From the NCBI GenBank assembly GCA_036001465.1, contig DASYUH010000032.1, positions 1 through 64,000 on the forward strand: DNA of 64,000 nucleotides, in the 5' to 3' direction. Within the stretch, counting starts at the first letter, position 1. Each line of letters starts with the position of its first letter. Source of the stretch: Candidatus Polarisedimenticolia bacterium. GTDB lineage: Bacteria; Acidobacteriota; Polarisedimenticolia; Gp22-AA2. Under the pieces are notes generated by a model, which saw nothing but the letters and a program-made list of their open reading frames with translations, did no database searches and was not told the DNA's origin. Of this stretch, positions 16,154 through 44,379 are shown piece by piece. The position numbers and the translations under genes are program-made.

Positions 16154-17266
16154 TCAACGCGTCGCCAGCAGGTGAAGCGAGTTCGCCTTGCACACCAGGT
16201 GCGCCCGCCCGCCGGGAGCGAGGGCGAGCTGCCGGCACGCCTGCGCCGTGATCGTCGCGAGCACCGGCGCGCCCAGCCGGCCCACCGCCACGACCACGAC
16301 GACCTGCCCGGCCCCGCCGTCCTCGGCCGCCGGTTGCCGGATCTCCCGGATCTCTCCCGCCAGGATGTTCTGCGCCGACAGCCCCGTGGGCGGATGCACC
16401 GCCAGAATCAGTTCCTCGGCCCGCGCCGCCACGATCACCTCGCGCCCCGCCTCGAGGCCCGGCGCGGCGACCGACACGCGCACGCCGGGCTCGAGCTCCA
16501 CCGTGGCGACCGCCGCGGAGGCCTCGACGACCCGACCGGCAAGAATGTTTTCGAACCCCCCCTCGCGGGCCATGGGAAAGATCGAACGATCGATGAACAC
16601 GTCCTCCGGGCGGCCGCGCGCCACCTCCTTCCCCGCCGCCAGGACCAGGACTTCGCGGCTCAGGAGCGTGACCTCGGTGGTTTCGTGCGACACGTAGATC
16701 GTCGGGACCGCGAACTCCTTCTGGATCCGCAACAGGCAGGGAAGGATGCGCCGCCTCAGCGGCTGGTCCAGGCTCCCGAGCGGCTCGTCCAGAAGCAGCA
16801 GCGCCGGCCCGGAGCAGAGGGCGCGGCCGAGGGCGACCCGCTGCTTCTCCCCTCCCGACAGGGACGCGACGTCCCGATGCCGCAGATCGCCCAGCTCGAG
16901 GACTTCGATGGCCCGCTCCGGATCGACGCGCGGCGCTCCGGGCCTCCGGGCGCGCCGGGATCCCGAGACCACGTTCCCCAGGACGTCGCGATGGGGAAAC
17001 AGGAGCGCATCCTGGGGGACGTAGCCGACGCCGCGCCGCTCCGGGGGCAGGACGAGCCCGCGGGACGAGTCGAGCCACGTCTCGCCGCCGACCCGGATCG
17101 TTCCCCGCGCTCCCCGCCGAAGCCCGGCGATCGACTCCAGGATCGAGGTCTTGCCGGCCCCCGAGGGGCCGAAGATGCCCAGCGCCGCCTCGGACGTCTC
17201 CCATTCGACCGAGAGCGTGAATCGGTCGAGCGGCATCGTGAGGTCAACGAGCAGGCTCGGCATCAT
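16154..17266 (-). CDS. modC: Molybdate ABC transporter ATP-binding protein
   Basis: This 370-residue protein has Walker A (GPSGAGKTS), the ABC signature ([15 protein letters not shown]), Walker B ([12 protein letters not shown]) and switch His (YVSHETTEV). The last ~130 residues contain two MOP/TOBE-like units ([11 protein letters not shown] and [11 protein letters not shown]), the molybdate-sensing domain typical of ModC. It powers ModB in the inner membrane. The start overlaps the modB stop by 3 bp, and its own stop overlaps a possible start of the porin gene, so modA-modB-modC-porin read as one operon. Confidence 0.95.
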
Positions 17267-17934
17267 GCGGAGCGCGCGCGCTTGCGAAGGAGGATCTCGA
17301 CCGTGAAGACGGCCGCGAACGCGAGGACCACGGTGACTGCGACCAGCGTCATCGCTGCGCGATCGTGGCCGATCTGCATGTCGCTGAAGATGGCCAGGGC
17401 CAGGGTCTGCGTCCGTCCCGGAATGCTCCCGGCCACGATGATGGTCGCCCCGAACTCCCCCAGCGCCCGGCTGAAGCCCAGGACCGCCGCCGCCAGAAGG
17501 CCGCGGCGGGCCAGGGGCAGAGTGATCTCCACGAACGTCCTGACCCGTCCCAGTCCCAGCGTGCGCGCGATCCCCTCGAGGCGGGAGTCGACCTCATCGA
17601 ACGCCACCCTCGAGGTCCGCACGACCAGCGGCAGCGCCATGACGCCGGAAGCCAGGACCGCCCCCTTCCAGGTGAACAGCAGATCGAGATCGAATCCCAG
17701 CGACGATTCACCGAGAGGTCCGTCCCTCCCCAGCATCCTGAGCAGAAGGTACCCGATCGCCGTCGGAGGCAGGACCAGGGGGAGCGAGGCGATCGTCTCG
17801 ATCAGGCTCTTCCCCTTGAAGCCGCCGCGCGCCAGGAGGAGGCCGATCAGGACGCCCGGCGGCAGGACCAGGACGGTGACCCAGCACGCGACCTTGAAGC
17901 TGATGAGCAGGGGGGACACCGCGGAACCGATCAA
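17263..17934 (-). CDS. modB: Molybdate ABC transporter permease
   Basis: This 223-residue inner-membrane permease has about five helices and the EAA loop around [21 protein letters not shown], diagnostic of ModB. The start is taken as TTG 17934, which overlaps the modA stop (TTGA) and implies coupled translation; GTG 17919 is an alternative. It forms the channel of the ModABC importer. Confidence 0.93.
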
Positions 17935-18731
17935 GGCGTCCCGGCCTGCACGATGAACCCGGATCGCTCGAACGCCGCCAGGGCTGCGGGCCCGGCAAGC
18001 CATGCCACGAAGCGCCTGGCCGCCTCGACGTTGGGACGCTTCCCGAGCGCCGCGACCGCATAGGAAATTCGCGGCTCCTCCGCGGCGGGGACTTCGTACA
18101 GCACCCTGACCTTGCTGGAGATCGCCGCGTCGGTGCGGTAGACGATCCCGACGCCGGCGGCCCCCGACTCGACCGCGGCCAGGGCGGCCCGCACGTCCAG
18201 CGCAGGCGTCACACGATCCGCGACGGACTCCCAGACGCCTGCCTTCTCGAGCCACGCCCGCGCGTACTTGCCGGCGGGGACCGCCTCGGGATTGCCCAGA
18301 GCGATCCGCCGGATCGCAGGCGAGCCGAGGTCGGACGCCGAGCCGATGCGCAGGGCCGAATCGGACGCGCCCACGACGACCAGTCGGTTGGAGAGCAGGG
18401 ACCGGCGCGAGCCGGGGTCCACGAGCCCGACCCGGGCGACGTGATCCATCCAAGCCTCGTCCGCGGACAGGAAGGCATCGGCCTTGTTGGCCGCCTCGAT
18501 CTGCCGCGCGAGGTCGTTCGAGGCTCCGAAGTTGAACACCAGACGCGCCTCGATGGCCTTCTCGCAGGCGGGGGCGAGCCGCTGCAGGACGTCGCGCAGG
18601 CTCGAGGCCGCGTACACCACGATCTCGGTCGGGGCGGCTGGCGCCGGGGCCGGCACGCCCGCCCGGGCGACCGCCAGCCCCAGGATTCCGGCCGCCGCGG
18701 CCGGCGACGCGGCGAGACTCCACCATCTCAT
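17931..18731 (-). CDS. modA: Molybdate-binding periplasmic protein
   Basis: This 266-residue protein starts at ATG 18731 behind GAGGTTCGAGG. It has a signal peptide, then the ModA hallmarks [29 protein letters not shown] (anion-binding Ser/Ala), [10 protein letters not shown] and GIVYRTDA. It captures molybdate, or tungstate, in the periplasm for ModBC. It is transcribed divergently from modE, and the palindrome at 18790-18803 lies between them. The sequence alone does not separate molybdate from tungstate preference. Confidence 0.93.
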
Positions 18732-18789
18732 CCTCGAACCTCCCGAGGCTGCGGTAGACTGCTGTCCGTCCGGGTGGACGCCGGCATTA

Positions 18790-18803
18790 TATATCAGGAT
18801 ATA
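18790..18803. promoter_or_regulatory. ModE-type operator palindrome
   Basis: TATATC-AG-GATATA is a perfect inverted repeat with 6-bp arms. It lies 2 bp before the modE start and 59 bp before the modA start. It matches the TATATA core of known ModE boxes but with much shorter spacing. Its position overlaps where a -10 element for modE would fall, so autorepression plus repression of modABC is likely. Confidence 0.6.
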
Positions 18804-18805
18804 CG

Positions 18806-19219
18806 ATGAGCGCGCGAGGCCGCACACGCCCCGAGTCGCGCCGGGCCTGGATCGCCAGGCCGCGCTGGCGCATCAGCCTGGGATCGACGATCGCGATGGG
18901 ACCGGGCAAGGCCGATCTGCTCGAGGCGATCGGGCGCGCCGGCTCCATCTCCGCGGGGGCCCGGTCGATCGGGATGTCCTACCGGCGCGCCTGGCTCCTG
19001 GTCGAGACGATGAACGCCTGTTTCGTCAGGCCGCTGGTCGTCACCTCGAAGTGGCGGGGCGGGGGCGCCCGTCTCACACCCGCCGGAAAAGACGTTCTGC
19101 GGCTGTACCGGGAAGTCGAGGCCAGGAGCCGCGCCGCCTCCCGGGCGCTCGTCGCCGACATCCGGCGCCTCCTCGGGCCGCCATCCGGCCGCAGGCTTCC
19201 ATTCAAAAAGGGCTCTTGA
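18806..19219 (+). CDS. modE: ModE-family molybdate-responsive regulator (HTH only)
   Basis: This 137-residue protein is a winged helix-turn-helix of the ModE N-terminal type: GKADLLEAIGRAGSISAGAR, MSYRRAWLLVETMN and GGGARLTPAG. No TOBE/MOP sensing domain follows, so it must sense molybdate through another protein or respond differently from E. coli ModE. It is divergent from modABC, with a palindrome immediately upstream. There is almost no space for a leader, so the mRNA may be leaderless. Confidence 0.85.
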   Translation: MSARGRTRPESRRAWIARPRWRISLGSTIAMGPGKADLLEAIGRAGSISAGARSIGMSYRRAWLLVETMNACFVRPLVVTSKWRGGGARLTPAGKDVLRLYREVEARSRAASRALVADIRRLLGPPSGRRLPFKKGS

Positions 19220-37142: not shown

Positions 37143-37964
37143 TCATCCCTGGGAGTCGCGCGGCTTCCAGACGAGAATTTCCCCCTTGCCCGGGACCGCG
37201 GCGTCCCCCGTGTAACGTTGATAGGCCCCGTCCCTCTCCTCGTGGGGCATGCGCACTCCCAGCGTCGACAGGTGCCTCGCGTACAGACGCAGGAACGTGG
37301 GATTGTACGTGCAGGAATACGAGAACGTCGGCAGGAGCGGAATCGGCTGCAACGAAATGATGGTGCCCCGCGAGATCCAGGCGCCGGTCCGCAGCTCGGC
37401 GCCGCTCCCCAGGAGGATGGTTCCGCCCTGCATCTCCAGGCCGGCGAAGTCCCTCACCCGGTCGCCCACGGCGATGATCCCCCGTTTCATCCGCATCCCG
37501 ACTTCGAGTCCTGCCGAGCCCCCGATGAGGATCGTGCCGCCCGTCATCCCGGTGAGGCTTCCGCGGTAGGCCGCACCGACCTGGCCGCCGGCGTTCCCGC
37601 CGACACGGATGGTTCCCCCGGACATCTCGGCGCCGAGCCAGTCCGAGACGTTCCCCGACACCTCGATGGTCCCCCCCTTCATGCCGGCCCCCAGGTGCAT
37701 GCCGGCGTTGCCGACGACGGTGAGGCGCCCGGTCGTCATGCCGCGGCCGATCCACTTGACCTTCCCCGCGTCGCCCCGGATCTCCAGATGGTCGCCGGGC
37801 GACCCCGCGACCTCGAAGAAATCGTCCACGCGGCGCTGCCGCTTCCCCAGGAAAACGGGAAGGACCCGGATGGCGTCGAGCGCGAGCGCACCCACGACGT
37901 CCGGAGAGAGAGACTCCGCCTCGAGCGGGACATTCGGTTGATTCTTGAGGGTCAGGGTCGGCAT
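37143..37964 (-). CDS. fmdC: Formylmethanofuran dehydrogenase subunit C
   Basis: This 273-residue protein is a right-handed β-helix of GxGxG repeats (GNAGMHLGAGMKGGTIEVSG, GGTIRVGGNAGGQVG, GGTILIGGSAGLEVG). The fold is shared by FmdC/FwdC/FhcC and glutamate synthase. In the complex it is structural and helps hold subunits A and B. It is the last gene of the operon, 13 bp after fmdA. The repeats and length match the family. Confidence 0.95.
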   Translation of the reverse strand: MPTLTLKNQPNVPLEAESLSPDVVGALALDAIRVLPVFLGKRQRRVDDFFEVAGSPGDHLEIRGDAGKVKWIGRGMTTGRLTVVGNAGMHLGAGMKGGTIEVSGNVSDWLGAEMSGGTIRVGGNAGGQVGAAYRGSLTGMTGGTILIGGSAGLEVGMRMKRGIIAVGDRVRDFAGLEMQGGTILLGSGAELRTGAWISRGTIISLQPIPLLPTFSYSCTYNPTFLRLYARHLSTLGVRMPHEERDGAYQRYTGDAAVPGKGEILVWKPRDSQG

Positions 37965-37977
37965 GCCCGTTACGGCG

Positions 37978-39603
37978 TCACGTGCAGGCGTGGATGTCCG
38001 GCTGCGCGAGGCGCTCCAGCTCCACGGCGTAGTTGTCGAAGGACATGGTGTAGACCTTTTCGAACAACGGGCGCAGGTACGCCTCGATTTGCGCGTCGAA
38101 GGAGGGCCGGGTTATGAATTCCCGGCCGCTGGTCACCGCGCGGATCTCCCCCTCCTCGACCACGATCTCCCCGGCCTTGATGACGTAGCGCGGATACTCG
38201 AACATGCGGCCGACCGAGGGATTCTCCTCATACACCGCAATGTCCGCGTCGGCCCCCACGCCGAGGTGTCCCTTGCGCGACAGGCCGAGGGCGCGCGCCG
38301 GGCCCGCGGAAGTGATGATCGCGATCTCCGACAGGGAGTACTGCCGGTCCAGGTCCGCGAGCACCATGCGCTCCAGCGCCTTGGGCGGCAGCCTCTTGAA
38401 GCACTCCCGCCGGTAGTCCACATCCCGCAGGAGACGGATGAGCTCCGGGTAGCGCCAGAAGCCCCCGCCGTTGGGATGGTCCGTGGTCAGGAAGATCCGC
38501 CAGGGATCGTCGATGAGCAGCAGCAGCTCCAGTCCCACGGCCCACTGCACCGCGTTGACCAGGCTGCGCTCCTTGTAGGTGTAGGGGACGATCCCGCACC
38601 CGGTCTCGTTCTCCACGTCCACGTTGCTCCATTTGCGTCCGGTCAACCCGTGGAGCACGTACTCCCAGGGGCCGTCGGCGGTGACCGTCATGGCATCGCC
38701 GAACAGGATCGCACCGGCGTCGGCGGTGAGGTTCTTGCGGGCGTTGAAGGCCTCGGCGAGCGCGGGCGCCTCGGAGCGCAGCGTCCCCCAGCCGTCTCCA
38801 CCGTAGGCGTGGAACTGCAGATGCGCCAGGTGCGCCCGGCGTCCCTCCAGGACCTTCATCGTCTCGAGCGTGGTGCTGACGTTCCCCGGGATGCCGAGCT
38901 TGTTGCAGTGGAGATGGAGCGGATGCGGCAGCTTCAGGTCGTCGATGATCCCCGCGAGGCTCGATATGATCCGCCCGGGCGTCATCTGGCGATAGCCTTC
39001 CACCGGCGCGGAAAGCGTGCCGGCGTTCTTGCCCGATTTCCAGGCGACGACTCCTCCCGGGTTGACCGCCTTCACCCCGTAGGCCTTGGCGGCCCAGATG
39101 AGCCAGCCCACGACATGCTTCGCGCGATCGACTTCGCCCGCTTCGAGGAGATCGAGCACAATCTCGTTGTTGGCCATCAGCACCAGGGAGGACTTGTCCA
39201 GGATCGGGATGTCGTGCAGCTCCTCGTGGGTGTGTCTCGCCGACAGGATCGGGACGGCGGCCTCGTTCACGGTCGTCCAGCCCATCCCGGCGTACAGGTA
39301 CCCGGTCGCGAAGGTGGTGGGAGTGATGCCGCCGAGACCGGAGCGTCGGTCCGGCGCGTGGATGAACCGGACCGCACGCCGGTAGTTCTCCGGGGTGATG
39401 CCCCGGGCGAAGTTCATCGCCGCGCCCGCGACGTGGGTGTGGACGTCGACGCCGCCGGGGAAGACGACCATCCCCTTCGCGTCGATCGTGCGTCCGCCGT
39501 CGACCCGGGGGACGATCCGGCCGTCCGCGATGCAGATGTCCTTGACGACGCCGAGGATTCCGTTCGCCGGATCGTGGACCGTCCCGCCCGTTATCCGCAG
39601 CAT
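37978..39603 (-). CDS. fmdA: Formylmethanofuran dehydrogenase subunit A (formyl hydrolase)
   Basis: This 541-residue metal-dependent amidohydrolase interconverts formylmethanofuran with formate plus methanofuran. Visible active-site residues are His55 and His57 (GGVDVHTHVAG), Lys178 (YGVKAVNPGG, the carboxylated lysine, at the same number as in archaeal FwdA), His230/His232 (PLHLHCNKLG) and Asp375 (TTDHPNGG). It starts 22 bp after fmdB behind GGAG. In archaeal complexes formate from the B-subunit Mo/W site reaches this subunit through a tunnel. In methylotrophic Fhc it only hydrolyses. The intact B and D subunits here suggest the redox version. Confidence 0.97.
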   Translation of the reverse strand: MLRITGGTVHDPANGILGVVKDICIADGRIVPRVDGGRTIDAKGMVVFPGGVDVHTHVAGAAMNFARGITPENYRRAVRFIHAPDRRSGLGGITPTTFATGYLYAGMGWTTVNEAAVPILSARHTHEELHDIPILDKSSLVLMANNEIVLDLLEAGEVDRAKHVVGWLIWAAKAYGVKAVNPGGVVAWKSGKNAGTLSAPVEGYRQMTPGRIISSLAGIIDDLKLPHPLHLHCNKLGIPGNVSTTLETMKVLEGRRAHLAHLQFHAYGGDGWGTLRSEAPALAEAFNARKNLTADAGAILFGDAMTVTADGPWEYVLHGLTGRKWSNVDVENETGCGIVPYTYKERSLVNAVQWAVGLELLLLIDDPWRIFLTTDHPNGGGFWRYPELIRLLRDVDYRRECFKRLPPKALERMVLADLDRQYSLSEIAIITSAGPARALGLSRKGHLGVGADADIAVYEENPSVGRMFEYPRYVIKAGEIVVEEGEIRAVTSGREFITRPSFDAQIEAYLRPLFEKVYTMSFDNYAVELERLAQPDIHACT

Positions 39604-39625: not shown

Positions 39626-40957
39626 CTACGCGTTCGCCATCTTCGCGTTCCGCGCGGGAGTCCAGGCCGGCTTCGTCGCCACGGCCTGGCGGATGCGCTG
39701 GATGACGTCCGCGTCGGTCGGATACGGCGATCGGAGGGCCGGCCTGAGCGGCAGGGGAACCTCGTCCATGCGATAGACGGTCCCGGGCGCGCTGATCCCG
39801 GTGGCCGCCGTGGTGATGTGCACGCGGGCCAGGCGGCTCGTGTGCGTCACCTTCGGATCCAGAACGATGGTCGGGATGCGCGCGAGGTGATCGATCCCCG
39901 GCTGGGGCATCGTCGCCCCCGGATCGGCGCCGAGGATGAGGGCGGCGTCGTTGTCCCCCCGGACCAGCAGGTCGACGGTCGAGAACTCCCCCGGATTGAA
40001 CCGGGGGTAGCCGCGGGCCATGCTGATCCCGAACGGGTACCCCGTGGTCCACCGCAGCACCATGTCCGATCCGGTCACATTGCCGTGCCCGCGCATCGGC
40101 ATGCACACGAACTTGGTGAAGGCGTTCAGCTCCGCGGCCAGCCTCAGGATCGCCGCCGAGTTCATGTGCTTGCCCCGGGTCATCGAGATCCCCATCCCGA
40201 AGAACAGCACGCCGAATCGCGCCCGCTTCATGCGGTCGATCAGATCCTGCATGGCCGCGACCGTCAAGCCGGTCTCCGCGGCGCTCGCTTCGTCCACCTT
40301 CTGATTCTTGAGGAGGGCGCGCAGCGTGGTGAGGACCTCGAAGTCCTTCCCCGGCAGGATCTGCAGGAAGATGTCCGCGGCTCTCCCGCTGGGCGTCTCC
40401 CGGATGTCCACCAGGACCATGGTCCGGCCCTTGCGCCCTTCGGGCACGAACCGGCCCTTCTGGGTCAGCGTGTACTTCGAGAAATGCCGCGGGTGGCATT
40501 CCGCGGGATTCCCCCCCCAGTAGACGATGAAATCCGCCCGGTTCTTGACTTCACCCAAGGTGCAGGTGACCTTGCCACCCAACTGGGCGGCTATCTCGGT
40601 GGGGCCGTGTCAAAGCGAGGTGTGGCTGTCGACCACACCTCCAATCAGCTCGGTGAGGGCCACCGCCTCCCGCTGGGCCTCGCAGGTGATGTTGCTCAGC
40701 CCGTACACCAGGGGCATGTTGGCGTTGTGGAGAAAGTCGGCCGCCGCCTCGACGGCGGCGTCGACCGTGGCGGGCTTTCCGTCGATCAGGGCATCGGGGA
40801 ACAGGCGCTCCGCCGTGTGGTTCTTGAACCACGCATCCCCGAGGCTGCAGGCGTTCCTGGCCTTGACGATCCGGTCCCCCTCGGCGTGCAGCTCGATGTC
40901 GTCGCAGACGCAGCCGCAGAAGGTGCAGGTGGCGTTCTTGACGACCTGGACGCTCAT
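39626..40957 (-). CDS. fmdB: Formylmethanofuran dehydrogenase subunit B with predicted selenocysteine at residue 116
   Basis: Read through an in-frame TGA (40610-40612), this is a 443-residue protein, normal length for FmdB/FwdB. Cys11, Cys14, Cys18 (CTFCGCVC) and Cys37 can bind the [4Fe-4S] cluster. The TGA is codon 116 in SHTSL-U-HGP, at the position of the Mo/W-ligating Cys118 of archaeal FwdB (Sec in FwuB). Sequence after the TGA continues the family without a shift (TLGEVKNRADFIVYWGGNP, RGHGNVTGSDMV). A bacterial-type SECIS hairpin begins 18 bases past the TGA. It catalyses reversible CO2/formate reduction at a Mo/W-pterin site. Start ATG 40957 has GAGGAG upstream. Read as two genes it would look broken; decay is unlikely given the context. 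Confidence 0.9.
40574..40591 (-). promoter_or_regulatory. Predicted bacterial SECIS element in fmdB
   Basis: The minus-strand RNA forms GCCGCCC-AGUU-GGGUGGC, a 7-bp stem with one G-U pair and a four-base loop with G second. The stem starts 18 nt after UGA. Known bacterial SECIS rules want a stem-loop 16-37 nt away with G among the first two loop bases. The surrounding codons ATA, TTG and GGT are rare in this genome's style, suggesting RNA-level selection. Confidence 0.75.
40610..40612 (-). other. In-frame TGA read as selenocysteine codon 116 of fmdB
   Basis: TGA is flanked by CTT and CAC GGC CCC. The following His-Gly-Pro is the motif that follows Sec140 in E. coli FdhF and the catalytic Cys/Sec of FwdB/FwuB. 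Many other genes in the window end at TGA, so this is not general code reassignment. Confidence 0.88.
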
Positions 40958-41013
40958 CGCGTCTCCTCTTCACTCCGTCCCGATCCTCCCGAACCGGGAG
41001 GCACGACGAACGC

Positions 41014-41181
41014 TCAGCCGAGCTCCCGGCCGCGGAAGCTCCCCCGGATGCGGCGGGGCATGTACCGCCCGATCTCCACCATCTCCCAGGGCGGCGAGTC
41101 CTGTGGCCCGGCTTCCGGGAGACTGCGATCGACGGAGAACCCGTCGGCCTGTCCGCGAGTCCTGGACGATGCGGGCCTCAT
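41014..41181 (-). CDS. 55-residue ORF translationally coupled to fmdD
   Basis: The ATG (41179-41181) overlaps the fmdD stop as ATGA, and the ORF fills most of the gap before fmdB. The product is basic, ending in MVEIGRYMPRRIRGSFRGRE. It has no signal, membrane helix or Cys. It could be a small accessory subunit or chaperone of the complex, or chance. I know of no matching family. Confidence 0.45.
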   Translation of the reverse strand: MRPASSRTRGQADGFSVDRSLPEAGPQDSPPWEMVEIGRYMPRRIRGSFRGRELG

Positions 41182-41546
41182 GCAGTCACCGGAGCGGCCG
41201 GCATCTCCGACGGCATCGGCTCGACCTCGACTTCCCAGCCCTTGGAGGTGGGCATTCCGGTGCCGTCGGTCCCCTGCCCCATGAGATGGCAGGTCGGAGG
41301 GCCATAAGGGACGAAGATCATGCCCCGGGGGACCTTCCCTTCCAGGCAACGGAACGTGGCCTCGCCGTTTCCGGACCGGACCCGGACGGTGCCGCCGGTC
41401 TGAATCCCGATCTCCTTCATGTCCTCGGGGTGCATGTTCAAGGTGCTCACGATGGCCTTGTACTCGGCGTGATCCTTGCCGACGTTGATCTGCTGGCCCT
41501 GCTTGGTGGTGCGGCCGGCGTTCATGATGAAGCGTTTTCGTTCCAT
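41178..41546 (-). CDS. fmdD: Formylmethanofuran dehydrogenase subunit D (pterin-binding)
   Basis: This ~122-residue protein is the molybdopterin-dinucleotide binding fold seen as a separate subunit in archaea: MNAGRTTKQGQQINVGKDHA, RGMIFVPYGPPTCHL and GTDGTGMPTSKGWEVEVE. It completes the Mo/W-bis-pterin site of subunit B. Known methylotroph Fhc complexes lack this subunit, so its presence argues for a redox-active enzyme. ATG 41546 has an AGGG site upstream; ATG 41525 is an alternative. Confidence 0.93.
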   Translation of the reverse strand: MERKRFIMNAGRTTKQGQQINVGKDHAEYKAIVSTLNMHPEDMKEIGIQTGGTVRVRSGNGEATFRCLEGKVPRGMIFVPYGPPTCHLMGQGTDGTGMPTSKGWEVEVEPMPSEMPAAPVTA

Positions 41547-41631
41547 GAAACACCCTCCCCGCGCCACGTTCCGGCGAAACGCATCATAGCATGGCGGGCG
41601 CGGGGCCAGGGACGGTCGCCCCGCCGCGGTT

Positions 41632-42564
41632 TCACGTGGCGGCCTCGAGCAGCGCGTGCAGCGGGAAGTGATGCTTTCCGAGCTTGCCGCCGTAGTTCCC
41701 CGCCGAGATCTCGATGACGCCGGGACGGCACGCCGCGTCGATGCCGGCGCGCAGGGCCGCCTCGATCGCGGCCCGGTCGAGGCCGTTCACCACGATCTCG
41801 AGCACCGAGTTCACGCCCTCCGGCAGCGCGCTCGTCACGCCTTTGCGCCCGCGCAGGGTCGGGCAGTACGCGTCGTTCGTCGACGCGATCATGTTCTTGT
41901 AGCGCTTCGCGCCCACCTTGCTGCCGCTGCGCACGATCCCGCCGGGAAAAGGCAGGACGACGCCGCGGACCCTGCGCATGGCGTCGACCGCCGCCTCCGC
42001 CGCCGCGAGGGCCGCCTCCTGGTCGCGGGCCAGGATCAGGAAGTTGCCGCCGCCGATCGCCTTCTGCACGCCGAAGGTCTCCTGCACGAGGAATTCCCCC
42101 TCCATCACCGGGATCCGCCAGTAACGCTTCCCGTCCAGGAGCTTGCTCGACTGGTAGCGGTCGCCAAAATGGCGCAGCACGCCGCCGACGACGACCCGCT
42201 CCCCCGCCTCGGGCAGGCCGTCGAAGCAGGCCGTGGTCGGGCAGGTGAGGACCGTCTGCCCCACCCGTTCGATCAGCCGCTTGCCGAGCCCCTCGGCGTC
42301 GAAGGCGAAGAGCGGCACGCTCGCTCCGGGGCGCCCGTCGGGCGTCTCCTCCGGCGCCAGCTCGGCCTCGATGCCGGCCTCGACCTTGCAGCCGATGACC
42401 GAGGTGGCGAACCCGGTCATGGCTCGAGCGGCCGTCAGCGCCCACGCCTGCGAGCGCGCCGTGATCACGACGCGCGCCGCGCGCATGTCGAACGCCTCGG
42501 CGAAGGTGTCGCCGATCCGCACGCCGCGCCGCTCCATCCCCCGCACCTCCGCCATCCCGGTCAT
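41632..42564 (-). CDS. ftr: Formylmethanofuran:tetrahydromethanopterin formyltransferase
   Basis: This 310-residue protein matches Ftr/FhcD throughout: GVRIGDTFAEAFDMRAARV at the start, LTCPTTACFDGLP, and SGSKVGAKRYKNMIASTNDA followed by CPTLRG. It moves the formyl group between methanofuran and tetrahydromethanopterin in the cytoplasm. It heads the fmd operon; ATG 42564 has GGAGG upstream, and an inverted repeat abuts that site. No other H4MPT-pathway genes (mch, mtd, fae) lie in the window. Confidence 0.96.
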   Translation of the reverse strand: MTGMAEVRGMERRGVRIGDTFAEAFDMRAARVVITARSQAWALTAARAMTGFATSVIGCKVEAGIEAELAPEETPDGRPGASVPLFAFDAEGLGKRLIERVGQTVLTCPTTACFDGLPEAGERVVVGGVLRHFGDRYQSSKLLDGKRYWRIPVMEGEFLVQETFGVQKAIGGGNFLILARDQEAALAAAEAAVDAMRRVRGVVLPFPGGIVRSGSKVGAKRYKNMIASTNDAYCPTLRGRKGVTSALPEGVNSVLEIVVNGLDRAAIEAALRAGIDAACRPGVIEISAGNYGGKLGKHHFPLHALLEAAT

Positions 42565-42803: not shown

Positions 42804-43232
42804 TCAGGACGCGGTGTCACGGCAGTAGGCGTATAGCGCTTCGTAAATCGGGAACTGCAGTCGCAGCTTCTCGTGGTCGTCGGGGGTGGTCTTGGCGAAT
42901 CCCAGAGCGGCGGCCAGCAGGCCGGCCGACTCAGGGCACGTGCCGATCTCGCCCTCGATGTCCGCGCCGTGAACGATGCGGGCGAGGCGGGCGAGCGCCG
43001 GATCGCGGAGACCGAAGTCCTCGATGAGGACCTCGAATGTGCACCGATTCCCGCGGTGGGTGTAATCCGCGCCGGGGGCGTCGAAGGACTTCCCCGAGAA
43101 ACTCGCGGCCGTGGGGAGCACCTGGTCAGCGGCAACGAAGATGAACTCCGCCTCCCTGTCGATGAACCGGGTGATGAGCCAGGGGCAGGCCACGCGGTCC
43201 GTCTTCGCGCCCTCGCGCGTTATCCACTTCAT
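42804..43232 (-). CDS. ChrB-domain protein (chromate-resistance type)
   Basis: This 142-residue protein is a stand-alone ChrB C-terminal domain: DRVACPWLITRFIDREAEFIF at the start and HGADIEG. Full-length ChrB also has an N-terminal regulatory part, absent here. Stand-alone forms occur next to superoxide dismutase (ChrC) and chromate transporter genes. The superoxide dismutase gene ends 28 bp upstream on the same strand, but no ChrA transporter is present, only the His-rich remnant downstream. A role in chromate resistance or sensing is inferred. Confidence 0.8.
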   Translation of the reverse strand: MKWITREGAKTDRVACPWLITRFIDREAEFIFVAADQVLPTAASFSGKSFDAPGADYTHRGNRCTFEVLIEDFGLRDPALARLARIVHGADIEGEIGTCPESAGLLAAALGFAKTTPDDHEKLRLQFPIYEALYAYCRDTAS

Positions 43233-43260
43233 CTTTGATCTCCCGGTCGCGCGGACCCGC

Positions 43261-44004
43261 TCAGGCCGCGAACGCCGCGGCGGCCTTGCGCGCGCGCTCG
43301 AGCCGCCGGTTCACTTCATCCCAGTTGATGTTCTGGAAGAACGCATCGACGTACTTCGCCGCCGCGGCGCCGTAGTCTATGTGGTAGGCGTGCTCGTACA
43401 TGTCCATGATGAGCAGGGGCAACCCCGACGCGAGCGCCTGCGTGTGGTTCCCGGACCAATAGGTGCGCAGGTCTCCGGTATGGAAATTGAAGTCGAGAAC
43501 CGCCCAGCCGCTTCCTCCGGCGAGACTCATTCCGGTGGCCCGGAACACCTCTTCCCACCGTGCGAACGACCCGCAGGCGCTTGCCAGGTCCTTCTGGATC
43601 GGTCCAGCGGCCCTGCCGTCGCCACCCAGGTTGCCGAAGTACAGCTCGTGAAGGATCACGGAATTGGTGAACGTCAGTTCCCGCTCCTTCAGGCCGGAGA
43701 CGATGAAGCCGGGCGTGTCGGCGCCGATCCGCGACAGCTCCTCTTCGACCTTGTTGAGGTTCTTGACCGCGCCTGCATAGTTGTTGTCGTGGTGGGAGAC
43801 AACGAGTCGCTCGGACAGACCCCGGAGTGTCTTCGGGGCGAAGGGAAGGGGCTTCACCGCATGCTGTCCCGGCGGCGTGGACGTCGACAGCGTGGAGCCT
43901 GAAACGGGATCGGTTGGTCTTTGTGGCATGGACAACCCTCCGCGGGCCATGAAGAGGCCGGTGACGCCGGTCACGATTCTGCCGAGCACTTCACGCCTGT
44001 TCAT
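43261..44004 (-). CDS. Fe/Mn superoxide dismutase with Tat-type signal
   Basis: This 247-residue protein starts at ATG 44004 with NRREVLGRIVTGVTGLFMA, a twin-arginine signal, so the enzyme is probably exported folded. The dismutase core shows VSHHDNNYAGAV (metal His), VILHELYFGNLG, GSGWAVLDFNF and DMYEHAYHIDYG, the Asp/His metal-ligand segment. Its neighbour is a ChrB-type gene, matching the chrC (SOD)-chrB pairing of chromate loci. The open frame continues upstream into a decayed RND fragment, but that part is not SOD. Confidence 0.87.
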   Translation of the reverse strand: MNRREVLGRIVTGVTGLFMARGGLSMPQRPTDPVSGSTLSTSTPPGQHAVKPLPFAPKTLRGLSERLVVSHHDNNYAGAVKNLNKVEEELSRIGADTPGFIVSGLKERELTFTNSVILHELYFGNLGGDGRAAGPIQKDLASACGSFARWEEVFRATGMSLAGGSGWAVLDFNFHTGDLRTYWSGNHTQALASGLPLLIMDMYEHAYHIDYGAAAAKYVDAFFQNINWDEVNRRLERARKAAAAFAA

Positions 44005-44058
44005 CGGACCCCCGCTGCGTTCTCGATCATCGTGGATCGGATCGTGTTCCAGGGCAAC

Positions 44059-44379
44059 CTGGATTTCGTTGCCCGGCTTGTCTCCGGCCAGCACGAGGGG
44101 GATGAGCGCGAGTCACGCCATCAGCGCAGTCATGAGGACCGGCGCGAGCCGCTCATGGGATCCGCGAAACACGGCTTCCCTGTTCGGCAGACCCTCATCG
44201 CGCATCAGGTGCCCGTAGTAACTGATGAGCAGGGCGCCGTTCCGCCTGGCGATGCCGAAGACGCTGATGAACGCGACGAGCGAGGCGACTCTCAGGCCCT
44301 GGCCTCCCGGAGCCACGGTCACGAGCCCGCCGAAAAGGGCGAGGAGCAGATTGACCAGGACGATCAGCCTCGAAATGGC
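44059..44379 (-). pseudogene. Decayed CusA/CzcA-type RND efflux pump fragment
   Basis: About 107 codons match the C-terminal membrane region of heavy-metal RND pumps: VASLVAFISVFGIARRNGA, HLMRDEGLPNREAVFRGS, then APVLMTALMA, a TGA stop (44113-44115), and LALIPLVLAGDKPGNEIQ in the same frame. Both ends of the ~1,000-residue protein are missing. The stop replaces a small residue and no SECIS-like context is needed to explain it. A relic of metal-resistance DNA next to the SOD/chrB pair. Confidence 0.8.

Follow-up and report, generated by a model that had tools for sequence, protein, structure and literature searches.

The analysed window, a 64,000-nt stretch of acidobacterial DNA, carries on its minus strand a formylmethanofuran dehydrogenase operon arranged as ftr-fwdD-(small gene)-fwdB-fwdA-fwdC, with the following features:

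41632–42564 (minus): ftr/fhcD, formylmethanofuran:H4MPT formyltransferase (TIGR03119, 435.7 bits)
41178–41567 (minus): fwdD, molybdopterin-dinucleotide-binding subunit (PF01568, 52 bits; NF042908, E-value 5e-23, below the cut-off of that model)
40954–41181 (minus): small gene, candidate new selenoprotein family, 75 aa when read through
41014–41016 (minus): in-frame TGA of the small gene, putative Sec56, in the motif GRxLG-U-[TA]-F-x-x-P; TGA in 84 of 84 loci
40985–41001 (minus): bacterial SECIS-type hairpin of the small gene, 6-bp stem CCUCCC/GGGAGG, loop GGUUC
39626–40957 (minus): fwdB, putative Sec-containing formylmethanofuran dehydrogenase subunit B, 443 aa when read through
40610–40612 (minus): in-frame TGA of fwdB, putative Sec116, in the Cys118 column of 5t5i_B
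40574–40591 (minus): bacterial SECIS-type hairpin of fwdB, 7-bp stem, loop AGUU, loop starting 25 nt after the TGA
37978–39603 (minus): fwdA, dinuclear-metal amidohydrolase subunit (TIGR03121, 672.9 bits)
37143–37964 (minus): fwdC (TIGR03122, 238.8 bits)

Translation of the fwdB frame (40957 to 39626, minus strand) revealed one TGA within the frame, at codon 116, which is followed by His-Gly-Pro and an open frame to a normal end at 443 aa. The product was assigned to the FwdB family by TIGR03129 (489.8 bits against a cut-off of 327.8; residues 8–425 on profile positions 1–420), and its top matches among solved structures were the archaeal FwdB chains 9sfi_Q, 8rja_B and 5t5i_B (E-values of 1e-104 to 1e-111). 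In phmmer alignments, residue 116 was shown to coincide with Cys118 of 5t5i_B, a Cys of 8rja_B and an X (an unresolved letter) in 9sfi_Q, and the N-terminal Fe-S cysteines C11, C14, C18 and C37 all aligned with those of 5t5i_B. Judged against 5t5i_B and 8rja_B, FwdB retains both the Mo/W-ligand position (Cys or Sec) and the four Fe-S cysteines. The original prediction had placed the TGA at codon 116 in the Cys118 column of archaeal FwdB, with His-Gly-Pro behind it, a normal-length frame and intact Fe-S cysteines; its coordinates and column were correct, and the remainder was borne out by translation and alignment. Sec116 would be the protein ligand of a Mo/W-bisPGD cofactor, a role that, like selenium insertion and the metal itself, we infer from sequence.

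As had also been anticipated, automatic ORF calling delivers fwdB as two fragments (40610–40957 and 39626–40582), which is what would be expected if the TGA were a true stop or an error in a split gene or pseudogene. This explanation is extremely improbable, as codon 116 is TGA in 83 of 83 fwdB sequences with at least 70% identity, derived from separate assemblies of Acidobacteriota and Planctomycetota, with the protein conserved on either side and the genome encoding a Sec machinery; a split gene or an assembly error was rejected on the strength of this conservation. The 83 sequences include that of the window itself, and their kinship means that counts of loci overstate independence. Relatives were obtained from a genome-contig scan (80 loci) and, for the remainder, from a further genome search, using peptide patterns that lie outside the codon 116 site. 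Additional Sec-fwdB sequences from later draws likewise carry TGA at this codon. Bacterial relatives at 52–60% identity possess TGC or TGT instead, and more distant ones exhibit Gly, Ser or a gap in this column, so that the homologue comparison proposed with the prediction distinguishes a uniform TGA group from Cys-encoding relatives.

The genome is a 4.58 Mb metagenome-assembled genome (MAG), listed as 100% complete, in which a tRNA-Sec (73.9 bits, anticodon UCA), SelA (541 bits), SelB (347 bits) and SelD (364 bits) were all identified computationally, so the proposed search for selA, selB, selC and selD was answered in full. SelA exceeded its cut-off in 22 of the 23 Sec-fwdB genomes tested; as it was also found in tested genomes without Sec-fwdB, SelA is required but does not discriminate between the two. 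A chimeric MAG is conceivable, against which argue the 260-kb contig and the recurrence of this operon in another species of the genus (G001). SelD of this genome (L129; G000:C13:57411-58343) has its own in-frame TGA, within GGUAAKL, and a hairpin downstream of it whose loop is GGU; in FdhA (L180; G000:C74), a TGA precedes HAP and a stem whose loop is GGUCU. Both proteins appear to be selenoproteins as well.

The region downstream of the fwdB TGA folds into GCCGCCC-AGUU-GGGUGGC, with G at loop position 2. This hairpin satisfies the rules published for bacterial SECIS elements, namely a stem of 4–16 bp, a loop of 3–9 nt with G in the first two loop positions, a spacing of 16–37 nt and an MFE of at most -7.5 (PMC13188914). 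Across 79 distinct sequences, 98.6% of cells are paired, compared with no more than 57% after sliding the partners, and a single double change was observed; covariation is scarce because the stem codons hardly vary. Given that covariation alone is weak evidence here, synonymous constraint and a random-TGA control were employed. Among 210 conserved degenerate codon columns of fwdB, the least synonymous variation was found at positions +9, +10 and +8 after the TGA, and Leu+10 is encoded by TTG in 81 of 81 sequences, whereas codon usage is mixed at the 17 remaining conserved Leu columns. A SECIS-like hairpin follows 81 of the 83 fwdB TGAs, compared with 15.6% of 3320 TGAs drawn at random from these loci, and the motif is lacking in the Cys homologues of fwdB. 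The single-sequence fold z-score of the hairpin is just -1.1, and an Rfam scan of the 64,000-nt window, a weak test as bacterial SECIS elements are diverse, returned no match. With a Sec-UGA, a SECIS, tRNA-Sec, SelA, SelB and SelD, fwdB exhibits all the elements expected of a bacterial selenoprotein gene.

The small gene is wedged between fwdD and fwdB, its ATG overlapping the fwdD stop and its final TGA overlapping the fwdB ATG (ATGA). An initial reading, in which this ORF ended at its first TGA, was overturned: the apparent stop was TGA in all 80 distinct sequences, and this uniformity led to examination of the sequence downstream. The internal TGA is present in 84 of 84 loci, and the frame continues beyond it in every one of them. 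The read-through protein has a conserved core, W-E-x4-G-R-[YF]-M-P-R-R-x-R-G-S-x2-G-R-x-L-G-U-[TA]-F-x-x-P, and the gene displays a conserved in-frame UGA, conserved coding on both sides and a SECIS, as a selenoprotein gene should.

Alternatively, the TGA of the small gene might be a real stop, with the hairpin downstream acting as a regulatory or processing element ahead of fwdB rather than as a SECIS; the segment beyond the TGA is short (11–54 codons) and lacks conservation at its far end, both of which would suit such a view. We nevertheless regard it as quite unlikely. Stops in the vicinity are far less uniform than the 84 of 84 TGAs, with TGA accounting for 41–48% of neighbouring stops (TGA 40, TAA 29 and TAG 15 at the end of the extended small frame; TGA 34, TAG 28 and TAA 20 at the end of fwdB in the same loci). 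The sequence beyond the TGA also behaves as coding sequence, with Phe at +2 in 84 of 84 loci and Pro at +5 in 79 of 84, a codon-position variability of 0.375/0.261/0.544, and a recurrent length difference close to the hairpin of exactly three bases. Furthermore, the loop and spacing of the hairpin obey bacterial SECIS rules and resemble the SelD and FdhA elements of the same genome.

Reading of this TGA as Sec is consistent with the hairpin, which is present in 82 of 84 loci and is of the type CCGYCC-GGUYC-GGRCGG; in the window, its loop GGUUC begins 18 nt after the TGA. Covariation is pronounced in this case, with 72 double-changed cells compared with 29.6 ± 9.0 in shuffled data (0 of 500 shuffles). 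Pair 22-32 is U-A in 42 sequences and C-G in 34, a change that Pro/Ser and Gly/Asp differences in the peptide largely track (PPGPGG versus PSGPDG). Computational analysis therefore shows recoding-type constraint on the small-gene TGA as well as on that of fwdB. The deepest Sec member, L135 (G284), encodes the small protein (GGVLGUAFKTTP) with a weak hairpin, and has an A-A mismatch in its fwdB hairpin.

The small gene was found in 78 of the 80 loci from the genome-contig scan and in 14 of the 15 Sec-fwdB loci from a later draw. In the three misses (L085, L109 and L154), under 200 nt of sequence is available upstream of fwdB, so that the gene lies beside Sec-fwdB in every evaluable locus, and it was absent from all Cys or degenerate fwdB loci examined. 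Among 396 Acidobacteriota genomes, strong matches to the small ORF occurred in exactly the five with Sec-fwdB; two weak matches (E-value 6e-4) look like chance hits. The Planctomycetota genomes were drawn using FwdB only as the query. In loci L066 and L072, approximately 1.4 kb separate the small gene from fwdB, without an FwdB paralogue. This strict computational co-occurrence, with none in Cys-FwdB operons, ties the small gene to the selenium chemistry of the enzyme and offers a direct handle on the question of why FwdB uses selenium.

No match to the read-through small protein was found in NCBIfam, Pfam, PHROGs or the PDB, and no plasmid record was found to encode it. It does not fit any of 119 listed prokaryotic selenoprotein families, and no match to its motif is present in Table 1 of PMC13188914. 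According to the same source, Cys homologues exist for nearly all selenoproteins, whereas none was found for the small protein among the loci examined; a family without them is unusual, though Cys forms are no strict requirement. AlphaFold returned low confidence for both forms of the protein (ending at the TGA and read through), predicting that on its own it is largely unstructured except for a short β-hairpin, and this predicted disorder would suit a peptide that acquires its fold upon contact with a partner. Given that methylofuran has up to 24 glutamates (PMC8141765), we considered whether the Arg-rich core might bind polyglutamate, and set the idea aside as unsupported. The 75-aa gene very likely founds a selenoprotein family that has so far gone undescribed and for which no Cys homologues are known; its product would act as an obligate partner (a subunit, cofactor-maturation factor or protectant) of the bacterial Sec formylmethanofuran dehydrogenase in Acidobacteriota and Planctomycetota. 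If so, such a family would be expected to escape searches that rely on Cys/Sec pairs; both fwdB and the small gene would be truncated or missed by automatic annotation.

A very short selenoprotein with a gene of its own next to that of a redox metalloenzyme has a counterpart in VhuU, the tiny Sec-bearing subunit of the methanogen [NiFeSe] hydrogenase, which carries the motif UxxC. The likeness is an analogy that makes no claim of sequence similarity, as the small protein has LGU[TA]F in place of UxxC. VhuU is among the families of the PMC13188914 inventory.

Sec-form fwdB genes were found in 5 of 396 sampled Acidobacteriota genomes and in 10 of 392 Planctomycetota genomes. In a quick phylogenetic tree, all bacterial Sec forms constituted a single group (support 100), with the bacterial Cys group adjacent and the archaeal FwdB sequences tested forming a separate group (support 100). 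Rhodopirellula sequences belong to the same clade as FwdB of the window. Acidobacterial Sec sequences are scattered over more than one position among those of planctomycetes, a pattern suggestive of horizontal transfer. In three loci, the Sec copy is accompanied by a tandem FwdB paralogue, with Thr (L117:4619-5872 and L127:4547-5842) or Cys (L099:3487-4764) at this position; these paralogues branch within the Sec group on long branches.

The original prediction that a metal-site-bearing bacterial FwdB contains Sec is supported by the Sec machinery, the conserved TGA and the bacterial SECIS, while its further claim that such an enzyme is undescribed in bacteria does not hold (PMC4807772, Fig. 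7b; PMC10100899). The former source reported in 2016 a Sec-containing fmdB in a D-B-A-C operon of Rhodopirellula P2 and two unclassified bacteria, and the latter, from 2023, counts 149 bacterial FwdB representatives, whereas a 2020 study stated that bacterial representatives are absent (PMC7331816). The window resembles Rhodopirellula P2, as depicted in that figure and main text, in the Sec of its FmdB/FwdB, the fmdD-B-A-C operon and the Sec machinery of the genome. It differs in that the host is an acidobacterium and in that clade-wide evidence is added here, and the main-text selenoprotein section of PMC4807772, its supplement aside, mentions neither a SECIS nor a small selenoprotein at the locus. 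Leaving aside the selenoprotein candidates in that supplement, no description of the small gene at a Sec-fwdB locus was found among the papers searched. As judged from the main text of the 2016 report, Sec-FwdB in bacteria was therefore already known and the second selenoprotein-like gene in the operon, immediately upstream of fwdB and overlooked in the original prediction, is what looks new; the present data carry a finding made in one planctomycete over to a clade that spans two phyla and add evidence on the recoding signal.

Compared with archaeal Sec-FwdB proteins, for example that of the selenium-dependent enzyme of Methanopyrus kandleri, FwdB of the window shares a Sec at the Mo/W-ligand position, full length and the Fe-S cysteines, but its operon has no FwdF/FwdG nearby and the signal for recoding is of the bacterial SECIS kind, located within the ORF. 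The operon otherwise meets expectations for an archaeal-type complex, with FwdA, FwdB, FwdC and FwdD present and the FwdA metal-site motifs HxH, HLHCN, VNPGG and TTDxPN retained in alignment with 5t5i_A and 8rja_A. No FwdF/FwdG electron module was found as a conserved neighbour, and, of 83 loci, one has a ferredoxin motif close to the cluster. With the Fhc complex of Methylorubrum extorquens (6s6y), the locus has in common the A, B, C and formyltransferase subunits and an H4MPT/methylofuran pathway. However, FhcB is described as lacking Mo/W-bisPGD (PMC10100899), whereas FwdB retains the Sec and Fe-S cysteines, and 6s6y_B matches FwdB at an E-value of only 2.8e-14, compared with 1e-92 to 1e-111 for archaeal FwdB.

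Genes for Mch, Fae, β-RFAP synthase and methanofuran-type biosynthesis were identified computationally elsewhere in the genome, and an ORF adjoining fae probably encodes MtdB, a resemblance noted by eye rather than confirmed by a model. We consider it highly probable, from sequence, that the operon ftr-fwdD-(small selenoprotein)-fwdB-fwdA-fwdC specifies a formylmethanofuran dehydrogenase that is redox-active and depends on selenium, with both UGAs read as Sec. UGA116 in fwdB and UGA56 in the small gene would be decoded by SelB and tRNA-Sec, each directed by its own bacterial SECIS hairpin within the coding region just downstream. FwdA would convert formyl-methylofuran to formate, which FwdB/FwdD would oxidize to CO2 within the complex at a Sec116-liganded Mo/W-bisPGD; the two-site tunnel mechanism known for archaeal Fwd (PMC11656701) may, by analogy, apply here. 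We infer the direction of the reaction and the electron acceptor likewise. The oxidative route, in which formyl-H4MPT yields formyl-methylofuran, formate and then CO2 in one complex, is most likely because the FwdA/C/D, Ftr, Mch and Fae set is present and the genome has no second FwdB-like gene besides FDH-type matches. The complex would represent the last step of H4MPT-dependent formaldehyde oxidation (with Fae, Mch, Ftr and probably MtdB), and the small protein would most likely be an obligate subunit or maturation partner of the Sec enzyme.

It might be argued that the complex is Fhc-like and merely hydrolyses formyl-methylofuran, with a vestigial Sec site and a separate formate dehydrogenase oxidizing the formate, given that no ferredoxin subunits lie near the cluster, that the genome has a separate FdhA and that Ftr and Fae indicate an oxidative methylotrophic pathway. 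The clade nevertheless keeps Sec, the Fe-S cysteines and FwdD, and true loss of the site elsewhere takes the form of Gly, Ser or a gap, rendering this option improbable. Reductive operation, from CO2 to formyl-methylofuran for a carbon-fixation or formyl-transfer route, is the direction of archaeal Fwd in hydrogenotrophic methanogens (PMC11656701), and the pathway is able to go either way; it is a rather unlikely possibility here, where Fae and the accompanying genes are typical of formaldehyde oxidation and no low-potential electron module was found nearby. The preferred oxidative Sec-Fwd would replace the metal-free Fhc-like type seen in other members of the genus, of which G003 and G004 encode a degenerate FwdB subunit, thereby providing a natural contrast inside one genus.

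Upstream of ftr, at 42804–44094 (minus), a ChrB C-terminal domain gene and an Fe/Mn superoxide dismutase gene are located, neither of which is among the conserved neighbours in other loci. Molybdate ABC transporter genes (ModC and ModA matched) are present at 16154–18827 (minus), approximately 20 kb from the fwd operon.
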